Source of the DNA: Jatrophihabitans sp.
GTDB lineage: Bacteria > Actinomycetota > Actinomycetes > Mycobacteriales > Jatrophihabitantaceae
Assembly (NCBI GenBank): GCA_036399055.1
Contig: DASWNX010000021.1
Location: forward strand, 62,001-126,000
Direction: 5' to 3'
Length of the DNA: 64,000 nt
How positions within the stretch are numbered: position 1 is the stretch's first letter; the number at the start of each line of letters is the position of its first letter. Under the pieces are notes generated by a model that was not told the origin of the DNA, did not search any database, and saw only the letters and a list, made by a program, of their open reading frames with translations. Positions 60,936 to 64,000 of the stretch are shown here, in pieces. Both the position numbers and the translations under genes were made by a program.

Positions 60936-61022
60936 GGTGACCCACACCGCTCTCGGCGGTGGACAAGCCGAAGCGTGCGGCACGGCAGGCAACGCTGCCA
61001 AGCCGCGCTCCGGACACTTCGC

Positions 61023-61028
61023 TAACCT
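61023..61028 (+). promoter_or_regulatory. Putative -10 of leaderless DUF480 fusion promoter (TAACCT)
   Basis: TAACCT ends 7 nt before GTG 61036. It supports that start over an upstream in-frame codon at 60937. Confidence 0.45.
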
Positions 61029-61035
61029 CGGCGTC

Positions 61036-62244
61036 GTGACCGACGCACCGGTGCTCGACGACGCCGAGCAACGCGTGCTCGGCAGCCTCTTGGAGAAGGA
61101 GGTCACCGTCCCGGCGTCGTATCCGATGAGCGTCACCTCGGTGCGCGCCGCCTGTAACCAGACCACTAGCCGAGAGCCCGTCGTCGACTACGACGAGGAA
61201 CTGGTGCATCGGACGCTGCGGGCGCTCAAGGACAAGGGACTCGTGGCGCCGACCTGGCAGGGCGCGGGCAGTCGCGTGGTGAAGTACGCGCAGACATTCG
61301 CGCAGCGCCGCGGCCTCGCGCCGGACGAGCGGGCACTGCTGACCATGCTGCTGCTGCGCGGGCCGCAGTCCGCCGGAGAGCTCAAGACCCGCACCGAACG
61401 GCTGCACCGCTTCTCTGACCGCACCGAGGTGCAGGCGTGCCTTGCTCGGATGGCCGATGGGCAGACCCCGCTGGCGCGCGAGCTCCCGCGCCGACCGGGC
61501 CAGCAGGACAGCCGTTGGATCCACCTGCTCGGCCCGGTCGAGTCGCCCGAGGCGACTGCCGCCCCGGCGCCCGTCGACCGCGAGTCGGTGCTCGACGCCG
61601 GGCCCGAGGCGCGCGATGACAAGATCCGAGCGGCGTACGCCGCGGTCGCCGGGCCCTATGCCGAGCAATTCAGCGATGAGCTCGCCGGCCTGCCGTTCGA
61701 GTCGTGGTTGCTACGCCGGGTGGTCGAGCTGTCCGAGGGCGCGCCCGTGATCGAGGTGGGCTCCGGCCCAGGTCACGTCACCGCGTTCCTGGCCGAGGCG
61801 GGGGCTGAGGCGACTGGTCTCGACCTCACCCCGGAGATGGTGGACCAAGCCCGCCGCCGCCACCCCGGCGTCGTTTACCAGGTCGGCGACCTGCGCCAGC
61901 TGATGCGCCCCGCCACCCACGACGGGTGGGGCGCGGTGCTGGCGTGGTACTCACTCATCCACCTCGCCGCCTCAGAACTGCCAGCGGCGATCGCCTCGCT
62001 CGCGCGACCGCTGCGCGCGAACGGCTGGCTCGTGCTCGCCCTCCACACCGGCGCCGACATACGCACCGTCACTGACTGGTTCGACCGAGAGATCGACCTC
62101 GACTTCGTCCTGCACGACCCAGCCGAGATCGTGGCTGTCGTTGAGCGAGCCGGCCTGCTCGACATCGAGTGGTACCACCGCGGCCCGTTCACCTCCCGCG
62201 GCGAGACCACCCAGCGCCTGTACGTCATCGCCCGCAAGGCGTGA
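61036..62244 (+). CDS. DUF480 (YceH) protein fused to a SAM-dependent methyltransferase
   Basis: With GTG 61036 the protein has 402 residues. Residues about 6-170 match YceH/DUF480, a double winged-helix protein (LDDAEQRVLGSLLEKEVTVP, YPMSVTSVRAACNQTTSREP, LLTMLLLRGPQSAGELKTRT). Residues about 196-402 are a class I methyltransferase with motif I VIEVGSGPGHVTAFLAEAGA and acidic LDLTPEMVDQARRR. The linker is Pro/Ala-rich. No stop or frameshift separates the parts. The DNA-binding-like half could target the enzyme, but the substrate is unknown. Confidence 0.88.
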   Translation: MTDAPVLDDAEQRVLGSLLEKEVTVPASYPMSVTSVRAACNQTTSREPVVDYDEELVHRTLRALKDKGLVAPTWQGAGSRVVKYAQTFAQRRGLAPDERALLTMLLLRGPQSAGELKTRTERLHRFSDRTEVQACLARMADGQTPLARELPRRPGQQDSRWIHLLGPVESPEATAAPAPVDRESVLDAGPEARDDKIRAAYAAVAGPYAEQFSDELAGLPFESWLLRRVVELSEGAPVIEVGSGPGHVTAFLAEAGAEATGLDLTPEMVDQARRRHPGVVYQVGDLRQLMRPATHDGWGAVLAWYSLIHLAASELPAAIASLARPLRANGWLVLALHTGADIRTVTDWFDREIDLDFVLHDPAEIVAVVERAGLLDIEWYHRGPFTSRGETTQRLYVIARKA

Positions 62245-62272: not shown

Positions 62273-62995
62273 ATGACTTCTCACCTGCTCGCGCTCTGCG
62301 TCGAGGCGAACGACCCGCCGCGTCTGGCGCGCTTCTGGGCCGGCGTCCTGGGCTGGGAGCGGGCGGATGACCCCCGCGAGGGCATCGCGTTGTTGCCGAG
62401 CGACGACACCGGGTTTCGCGTCCGGTTTCTTCTGACCCAGGCGCAGAAGGCCGGCAAGAACCGGATGCACTTCGATCTGACGAGCACGTCCCTGGCCGGC
62501 CAGCAGCAGACGGTGGCGCGGTCGCTCGAACTCGGCGCCCGGCACATCGACATCGGTCAACGACCCGACGAGCCTCATGTGGTGCTCGCCGACCCCGAAG
62601 GCAATGAGTTCTGCGTCATCGAGCCGGGCAACGGCTTCCTCGCTGACTGCGGGTTTCTGGGAGCGGTCGCGTGCGACGGCTCCCAGGACGTCGGGTACTT
62701 CTGGGGCCAGGCGCTGGGCTGGCCGTTGGTCTGGGACCAGGACCAGGAGACCGCTATCCGCTCGCCTCACGGCGGCCCGAAGATCACCTGGGGCGGTCCG
62801 CCGCTGACGCCCAAGGCCGGGAAGAACCGCCTGCACTTCGATATCGCGCCACCGGTCGACGGCGATCAGCAGGCAGAGGTCGAGCGTCTGGTCTCCCTCG
62901 GCGCGACTCGACTCGACATCGGACAGGGCGAGGTCAGCTGGGTGGTGATGGCCGACCCCGACGGCAATGAGTTCTGCGTGCTGACCCCTCGGTAG
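62273..62995 (+). CDS. Two-domain VOC (glyoxalase-like) protein
   Basis: ATG 62273 follows AAAGGCGGA and gives 240 residues in two VOC halves: LCVEANDPPRLARFWAGVLG...LADPEGNEFCVI and FLGAVACDGSQDVGYFWGQA...MADPDGNEFCVL. KAGKNRMHFDL and KAGKNRLHFDI occupy the same place in each half. It is related to the VOC protein at 1021. It lies 28 nt after the DUF480 fusion and may be cotranscribed with it. Function unknown. Confidence 0.87.
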   Translation: MTSHLLALCVEANDPPRLARFWAGVLGWERADDPREGIALLPSDDTGFRVRFLLTQAQKAGKNRMHFDLTSTSLAGQQQTVARSLELGARHIDIGQRPDEPHVVLADPEGNEFCVIEPGNGFLADCGFLGAVACDGSQDVGYFWGQALGWPLVWDQDQETAIRSPHGGPKITWGGPPLTPKAGKNRLHFDIAPPVDGDQQAEVERLVSLGATRLDIGQGEVSWVVMADPDGNEFCVLTPR

Positions 62996-63344
62996 CGCAG
63001 CCGGACCGAGCCAGCGGCGGCGACCCTCCGATTAATGAAACGTGTGACTCGTTGCCGACACGATCGGCTGCCTAGGCCAGATCGTGGGCTTGGGTCCCCA
63101 CACATGCGGTGCGTTGATCTGGCTCCTCGGCCCCTGCCACCAGATCGACCCCAGACGCGGCAGCTTCTGAGAGAACTCGCCAGTCACCGAACCGGGACGG
63201 TTGATTGACATCTCGCCTCGGGCGCGACCCAGTCAGGGTGCCGACGCGTCGAATCAGACGATGCGCCGACGCCATGACCGGTACCTTTTGCTAACGATGT
63301 TAAGCACGCTATGTACTGGTCACATGGCGAGCTGCCTAGCTAGG
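62996..63344. other. Non-coding region downstream of the heptapeptide ORFs
   Basis: No convincing gene is seen on either strand. A 67-codon minus-strand frame (63072-63275) begins after ggtaccggtc without a clear ribosome site and looks like no known family. The sequence may hold the 3' end of the heptapeptide transcript or a decayed gene. Confidence 0.5.
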
Positions 63345-63368
63345 TCAGTGCCATTCGACGTTGCGCAT
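63345..63368 (-). CDS. Heptapeptide ORF MRNVEWH
   Basis: ATG-CGC-AAC-GTC-GAA-TGG-CAC-TGA is preceded by GGAGGTGA (63381-63374) with 5 nt spacing, a consensus anti-Shine-Dalgarno match. It is the downstream copy of the tandem pair. Such a small but perfectly equipped ORF could be a minimal RiPP precursor (compare five-residue biarylitide precursors of MRYYH type) or a leader peptide. No modifying enzyme is visible in the window. Confidence 0.5.
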   Translation of the reverse strand: MRNVEWH

Positions 63369-63413
63369 CGGTGTCACCTCCTGTTCCTGGATCAGCGTGA
63401 CTGATTAGCTAGG

Positions 63414-63437
63414 TCAGTGCCATTCGTAGTTGCGCAT
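63414..63437 (-). CDS. Heptapeptide ORF MRNYEWH
   Basis: ATG-CGC-AAC-TAC-GAA-TGG-CAC-TGA is preceded by GGAGGTGA (63449-63442) with 4 nt spacing. It is the upstream copy of the tandem pair and differs from the other peptide only at residue 4 (Tyr for Val). Both end in Trp-His. Conservation of SD, start, six of seven residues and stop is the main argument that it is translated. Confidence 0.5.
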   Translation of the reverse strand: MRNYEWH

Positions 63438-63457
63438 GGTGTCACCTCCTGTTCCTG

Positions 63458-63627
63458 ACCGGTCCATAGCCCACAGTCACTGCGCCACCGGGCGGCTCTG
63501 CTGGGACTGCGCCGGACGCCCGTCCATACGGTGGGCGCATCCACGCCCGGGGACCGGAGGGCGAGGATTGTCGTGCAACCGGTCGCTACCGGTGTGTCAG
63601 TACGAAAATCGGTAGCATCACCGAATC
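63458..63627. other. Divergent promoter region between heptapeptide ORFs and FGE-family gene
   Basis: This 170-bp region must hold the promoters for both directions. TAGCAT (63613-63618) lies 9 nt before GTG 63628. On the minus strand TATGGA (about 63466-63471) is a possible -10 for the heptapeptide transcript. No -35 elements were identified with confidence. Confidence 0.4.
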
Positions 63628-64000
63628 GTGGGCATCGGCACGGGAATCACCATGGTCGCTGTTCCGTCTGGGGACGTGACGATCTCGGATCGACGAACGC
63701 AGAGCAGCTGGAATGTCGGCGTCAAGGCTTACCTCCTCGGCGCTCATCCCATCACCCGGGCGACCTATTCCCAGGTCGCCGGTAGTCGACCGGGCAGCGC
63801 CCAGGCAGATCAACTGCCGGTCGAGACCGTCTCGTGGTTCAACGCGATTCGTTTCTGCAATGCCCTGTCCGAGCGGGAGGGGCTTGTGCCGGCCTATGAC
63901 GTGCGCGCTCAGGATGGGCATGTCGAATGGGATGCCGAGGCTGACGGCTTTCGCCTGCCGACCGAGCCCGAATGGGAACACGCTTGTCGGGCCGGCACGA
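63628..64000 (+). CDS. Formylglycine-generating-enzyme (SUMF1/FGE-sulfatase) family protein, 3' truncated by window end
   Basis: GTG 63628 is the first in-frame start after a stop at 63613. The visible 124 residues include VKAYLLGAHPITRATYSQVA, LPVETVSWFNAIRFCNALSE, EREGLVPAYDV and FRLPTEPEWEHACRAGT. These are the N-terminal blocks of the SUMF1/FGE fold, also used by EgtB-like sulfoxide synthases and by many proteins of unknown substrate. The catalytic cysteines of true FGE would lie beyond the window. It is divergent from the heptapeptide ORFs. Confidence 0.85.
   Translation, partial: MGIGTGITMVAVPSGDVTISDRRTQSSWNVGVKAYLLGAHPITRATYSQVAGSRPGSAQADQLPVETVSWFNAIRFCNALSEREGLVPAYDVRAQDGHVEWDAEADGFRLPTEPEWEHACRAGT

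Follow-up and report, generated by a model that had tools for sequence, protein, structure and literature searches.

Amino-acid leader-peptide attenuators consist of a short open reading frame (ORF) with Trp codons that is followed by a hairpin. Among peptide signals, the leaderless communication peptides (LCPs) of Firmicutes are characterized, in the sections of the source cited here, by their shortness, a ribosome site that scores high, a divergent context, and aromatic residues (PMC10518010). Trp-x-Trp pheromones are described, in the extracts of the literature on which we draw, for the pneumococcal Rgg systems (RtgS and Rgg1518). For the biarylitides, the cited part of PMC13417212 gives a detection rule for the precursor, which has 5–8 residues with aromatic ones at positions 3 and 5, and it also reports multi-copy precursors.

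We describe here a pair of mini-ORFs located in a window of 64,000 nucleotides, by which we mean the whole stretch of DNA analysed, together with their counterparts in the same genome (G000) and in two relatives of the same genus (G005 and G007). Judging by sequence, both ORFs look like genes and belong to a leaderless, multi-copy family of micro-genes. The repeated occurrence of these micro-genes, mostly beside the same kinds of partner, suggests an unrecognised short-peptide signalling system. Genes of 6–9 codons escape ordinary gene finders, and the literature searched (open-licence PMC papers) yielded no account of a family of this kind from Actinobacteria.

The Tandem Mini-ORFs and Their Setting

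The original prediction of two tandem ORFs on the minus strand, MRNYEWH and MRNVEWH, each behind GGAGGTGA, was confirmed. The features of the locus are the following.

63414–63437, minus strand: mini-ORF 1, MRNYEWH (ATG CGC AAC TAC GAA TGG CAC TGA).
63442–63449, minus strand: GGAGGTGA, ribosome-binding site of mini-ORF 1, 4 nt before the ATG.
63345–63368, minus strand: mini-ORF 2, MRNVEWH (ATG CGC AAC GTC GAA TGG CAC TGA).
63374–63381, minus strand: GGAGGTGA, ribosome-binding site of mini-ORF 2, 5 nt before the ATG.
63307–63318, minus strand: CAGTACATAGCG, one portion of an inverted-repeat element that accompanies the mini-ORFs at C17-type loci, with the far arm missing.
63628–64000, plus strand, with about 314 bases more beyond the window: FGE-sulfatase family gene, 228 aa (PF03781, E 2.4e-39).

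The repeat units extend over 63457–63406 (52 bp, mini-ORF 1) and 63389–63337 (53 bp, mini-ORF 2). They had been described as near-identical, with the peptide varying at residue 4, and this holds: what distinguishes the units is a single G inserted in the spacer, together with two bases in codon 4. The ribosome sites had also been called striking. These two are the only GGAGGTGA-led ORFs of 3–12 codons in the window, and the predicted pairing of the mini-ORF 1 site with the 16S tail exceeds that of all 281 background mini-ORFs from the 11 loci presented below. In 60 Markov-1 simulations of the window, GGAGGTGA-led ORFs of this size had a mean of 0.07 versus the 2 observed, these being copies by duplication and so not independent. 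GGAGG-led ORFs had a mean of 2.3 versus 2 observed, so a ribosome site with a short ORF is in itself unremarkable. The window pair stands above chance because family members occur elsewhere.

The mini-ORF spacer is bounded by a glyoxalase-domain gene (62273–62995, plus strand) and by the divergent FGE-sulfatase family gene. In the window, the partner gene is followed by the divergent mini-ORFs and then by the element, an arrangement shared with the W-type loci except that the FGE-family gene replaces a gene for a GGDEF-like protein. The placement of the FGE-family gene relative to the mini-ORFs is the same, divergent, as that of the GGDEF-like gene in ten other loci. Judged by position only, the FGE-family gene may be a stand-in for the GGDEF-like partner. 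By motif scan, the window locus is without both usual partners, the GGDEF-like gene and a helix-turn-helix (HTH) gene. A relative of the FGE-family gene was found in one of nine genus genomes, its own (E up to 1e-20).

The sequence CAGTACATAGCG that follows mini-ORF 2 has one match in the window and none in 100 shuffles; the full palindrome is absent from the window. The examined stretch of the window showed no promoter-like site, and no promoter was identified for the mini-ORFs. It had two terminator-like sites (shuffle mean 0.4), neither of them after the mini-ORFs, where the terminator and hairpin scans gave no clear terminator. One terminator-like site (63609–63624, minus strand) lies upstream of the mini-ORFs and adjoins the start of the FGE-family gene. 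Rfam gave no matches at E up to 10 for positions 62900–64000 of the window, nor at E up to 1 for eight loci. In the surroundings, it was possible to see an ORF (60937–62244) with a DUF480 domain fused to a methyltransferase domain, the end of which has a 90% identical stretch at a contig end in G004, and, just past the window, a sigma-70 family gene with a DUF6596 domain on the minus strand (approximately 64524–65993; L002 11525–12994).

A Family of Mini-ORFs in Three Genomes

Among 9 genomes of the genus, 24 of the family, and 397 of the order, strict MRNxEWH patterns matched a single one each time, the own genome, and would by themselves have suggested an orphan; a relaxed DNA search revealed divergent copies. 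When 146 bp were searched against the 24 family genomes, identities of 81–82% over 37–38 bp were obtained in G005, in G007, and on another contig of G000. These matches encode MMRNYEWV, MMRNYEWV, and MQNYEWV and belong to one orthologous locus, in which they sit within a spacer of several hundred bases and diverge from the gene of a membrane protein whose GGDEF-like domain is degenerate. Their E-values are weak (0.023, 0.025, and 0.088), and we consider them convincing because all three run from the ribosome site to the stop at that one locus. The best match outside the window, in G001 (E 0.0026), is not a mini-ORF and was discarded as unrelated.

Using the GGDEF-like protein as query (24 genomes, E up to 1e-20), nine loci were obtained in three genomes. 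All six of the paralogous loci among them contained more ribosome-site-led ORFs, such as MLRQWEWP, MLRNWDWS, and MNNWHWPVA. A further G000 locus, C34, was absent from that list and was found by a pattern combining ribosome site and peptide; it then proved to hold a GGDEF-like gene, an HTH gene, and four mini-ORFs. The total tabulated is 21 ORFs of 6–9 residues at 11 loci in three genomes of one genus: 14 ORFs at six loci in G000 (contigs C15, C17, C21, C33, C34, and C40), four at three loci in G005, and three at two loci in G007. This is not a full census, since the genomes were not scanned whole, and it leaves out L086 1035 (GTG start, VRHWNCS), the MSNWNW of L084 (no ribosome site), and longer or shorter alternative starts of the ORFs counted. 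Some cassettes have further mini-ORFs on their HTH side, variously oriented (L120 12286, minus; L088 8988, minus; L084 12716, plus).

The peptide consensus is M-x-R/N-x-W/Y-x-W-x(0-3), preceded in nearly all cases by a strong ribosome site that is near-consensus in most. Up to four micro-genes occur per locus, and the peptides differ (MLRQWEWP, MSRHWGWP, and MLRNWDWS) between loci whose flanking genes make them look like orthologs. Across the order, the W-x-W pattern had 7 matches in G000, 2 in G005, and 29 in 28 other genomes; these 29 are not above the reversed-pattern control (38 by tally), and those inspected were long frames or chance-like. In G017, of another genus of the family, an isolated GGGGT-led MHLTWLW with its stop (L102 1500) is probably due to chance.

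Partner Genes and the Proposed Signalling Role

The GGDEF-like protein is encoded divergently from at least one mini-ORF at 10 of the 11 loci, the window having the FGE-family gene instead. A simple hydropathy count on three members gave 3–5 hydrophobic segments. Profile matches are weak, to GGDEF_2 in four of eight members (best E 0.0012) and to GGDEF in five of eight (best E 0.064); one of the eight also weakly matches NCBIfam rSAM_lost_HExxH (E 0.0015). The four G000 paralogs (L085, L087, L088, and L120) are near-identical in their C-terminal parts but not in their N-terminal membrane parts, a pattern that recalls gene conversion. Seven W-type GGDEF-like proteins end in TRNW, NRNW, NRSW, or HHTW, resembling the R-N/H-W of the peptides.

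The HTH protein, whose gene converges with the GGDEF-like gene at seven loci, matches the transcriptional repressor phrog_12831 in 7/7 members and has distant relatives among the repressors of Gordonia and Mycobacterium phages. As query it found 31 phage records, with 38.6% as the best identity among the matches listed, and none among plasmids; its profile had no PDB match, and five of the seven proteins showed no TPR domain (Pfam, E up to 1). At 4 of the 11 loci the gene was not seen by motif scan. The GGDEF-like protein matched neither phages nor plasmids, and the viral contigs searched gave no matches. Conserved neighbours, a P450 among them, had been looked to for the function of the mini-ORFs: the genomes compared do share such neighbours, the two just described, and a P450 is not one of them on the mini-ORF contigs of G000. 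The distribution of the partner genes is very narrow. Three of the nine genus genomes contain the GGDEF-like gene, and the 15 other family genomes gave no match (E up to 1e-20; several genomes incomplete). Of 394 class genomes sampled, one matched the HTH profile (E up to 1e-12), with up to seven candidates per genome scored. An inverted repeat accompanies 9 of the 10 GGDEF-like loci, with small mismatches at two; the tenth, L089, is cut off by the contig end.

What the loci have in common, a very short peptide that differs between orthologous-looking loci and has a membrane protein and a DNA-binding protein as neighbours, is in keeping with signalling of the LCP type. The best reading, which we hold to be about evenly balanced between right and wrong, is that the multi-copy leaderless micro-genes encode putative peptide signals resembling the LCPs of Firmicutes, with unrelated partners. 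The unprocessed peptide would be the product and would act in trans as a signal that carries specificity. It may be sensed by the membrane GGDEF-like protein, by the HTH protein, or by both, and one or both of these would then regulate the locus by way of the inverted repeat, which is conserved. Recognition would centre on the R and the spaced aromatic pair, and the variable positions would give each copy its own code.

Hairpins after the ORFs

In 9 of 16 W-type copies, the stop is followed at 12–17 nt by the start of a GC-rich hairpin; the scan used reports a best hairpin for every copy and has no null of its own. The best hairpin is more stable on the ORF strand in 17 of 21 cases, the opposite strand being equal or more stable in the other 4. 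Alignment of six related hairpins showed that pairing is maintained in 97 of 98 cells and that 5 of 17 pairs changed on both sides, a level of covariation reached by 2 of 500 shuffles and not by slid versions. In the strand test on the same six copies, 97/98 cells pair on the ORF strand versus 87/98 on the other; the 10 G-U cells that pair on the ORF strand only point to it as the RNA strand.

The mini-ORFs might instead be cis-acting regulators, whose translation would control transcription, the peptide having no role. It would do so either ahead of the ORF's own hairpin (attenuator-like, sensing how much Trp or Arg is available) or against the 5′ region of the partner, which is antisense to it. 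The mini-ORFs do lie opposite, in antisense, to the stretch that immediately precedes the GGDEF-like gene, and a short ORF that has one or two Trp codons and precedes a hairpin recalls a leader-peptide attenuator, even though no clear hairpin was found in the window. An attenuator leader had been one of the functions foreseen. It was not supported: on inspection of the ORF lists, no conserved same-strand gene lies downstream of the arrays, whatever the resemblance of ORF and hairpin. Moreover, the NYEW/NVEW copies are down to one Trp codon, the tandem C34 copies each carry a hairpin of their own, and the frame stays intact across copies that differ in their residues. We regard such a regulator as unlikely.

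Comparison with Biarylitide Precursors

The other function foreseen was that of a biarylitide-like RiPP. In its general form, the mini-ORFs would be minimal RiPP precursors, and an enzyme from another part of the genome would cross-link their aromatic-x-aromatic core, with the FGE-family gene that adjoins the window pair as a possible tailoring enzyme. The tiny precursor gene, the MR start of some peptides, and the spacing of the aromatic residues are as in biarylitides (BytA/P450), and the multi-copy cases of the cited part of PMC13417212 agree with it. However, a search for P450 (PF00067) in G000 gave 15 matches, ten gene loci by count, on contigs C2, C23, C25, C26, C29, C30, C35, and C39, and none on C21 or the other five mini-ORF contigs. 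Within 1.5 kb on either side of the P450 matches (L026–L040) there was no ribosome-site-led motif ORF, and 0/21 peptides are aromatic at both positions 3 and 5. For two P450s compared with the PDB, no entry was named for biarylitides, many of the names being generic. The common neighbours, besides, look like regulators. The biarylitide claim is not supported, and the wider RiPP reading is quite improbable.

Evidence for the Mini-ORFs as Probable Genes

The ribosome sites were evaluated by scanning the 11 loci for the peptide motif regardless of ribosome site and comparing the result with the 281 background mini-ORFs. Of the motif entries, 22/23 (20/21 distinct ORFs) lie within the best 10.3% of background pairing, the sole exception being a match without ribosome site, and 14/23 pair better than the whole background. 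This test is not fully independent because the motif was learned from ribosome-site-filtered ORFs. Strong sites on very short ORFs could also belong to a minigene or toxin-antitoxin arrangement, where strong initiation on few codons traps peptidyl-tRNA and slows translation, and the brake is an opposite-strand transcript or the HTH protein. A minigene acting in cis in a toxin-antitoxin operon is on record, but the one described in the cited part of PMC8708949 has two codons and is reported there as not toxic, whereas here there are 6–9 codons with a conserved peptide and 14 copies found in one genome, which makes this explanation very improbable.

Conservation was assessed on the three orthologous spacers, aligned and scored in 40-column windows. 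Three-way identity is 32% overall versus 87.5% for the block of ribosome site and ORF, inside which there is a CGT/CGG synonymous change. This block and the inverted repeat GTGACAG...CTGTCAC (90%) are the two best conserved of the spacer. Together with the 21 ORFs of the three genomes, it bears out the expectation that the ORF is kept in relatives beyond the DNA repeat. The 21 ORFs use CGT, CGC, and CGG for Arg, four Leu codons, and TAA, TGA, and TAG as stops. The count of synonymous changes does not separate the true frame (95 observed versus 56.7 expected) from the shifted frames (+1, 209 versus 130.2; +2, 129 versus 115.9; antisense, 109 versus 80.7). That the copies are a DNA or RNA repeat with fortuitous ORFs, as this count and the fact that they are partly repeats of each other would allow, is hardly credible, since ribosome-site spacing, frame, and stop are kept despite this variety of codons and the block conserved in diverged spacers coincides with ribosome site and ORF.

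Comparison with Known Peptide Signalling Systems

Returning to the reading as peptide signals, we put forward, tentatively and as the less probable side of the question, a more specific form of it: an undescribed leaderless signalling class of Actinobacteria, in which R-x-W-x-W peptides would be read by a GGDEF-derived receptor or output domain turned non-catalytic and by a domesticated phage-type repressor. Each stand-alone unit (ribosome site, 6–9 codons, and hairpin) would belong to one of several parallel channels within one genome. If true, leaderless peptide signalling would extend beyond Firmicutes, degenerate GGDEF proteins could have peptide partners, and a strong ribosome site, a tiny ORF, a hairpin, and a divergent partner would make a simple search rule.

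With RtgS and Rgg1518 the mini-ORFs share the Trp-x-Trp; the precursors of those pheromones, as quoted in the extracts cited, have about 30 residues, whereas the whole ORF here has 6–9 codons. From the LCPs they differ in several respects. The host is a MAG-rich actinobacterial genus and not one of Firmicutes, and its partners are a membrane protein with a degenerate GGDEF-like domain and an HTH protein that resembles phage repressors. A receptor of the RopB/Rgg kind (HTH plus TPR) was not found, so that by protein family they fall outside the LCPs. Unlike the highly hydrophobic LCPs, the peptides carry R, an aromatic pair, and polar residues, and there are up to four micro-genes at one locus. 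In other respects they resemble the LCPs (SIP/RopB), as given in the cited parts of PMC10518010 and PMC13361665. In both, an ultrasmall ORF with a ribosome site, predicted to be strong here, would specify a leaderless peptide, mostly of 8–10 aa in LCPs and of 6–9 aa here. LCP genes are preferably divergent from that of the partner; here, at least one mini-ORF is divergent from the GGDEF-like gene at 10 of the 11 loci, and that gene is not a known receptor. In both, the aromatic residues are frequent and the sequence varies among relatives.
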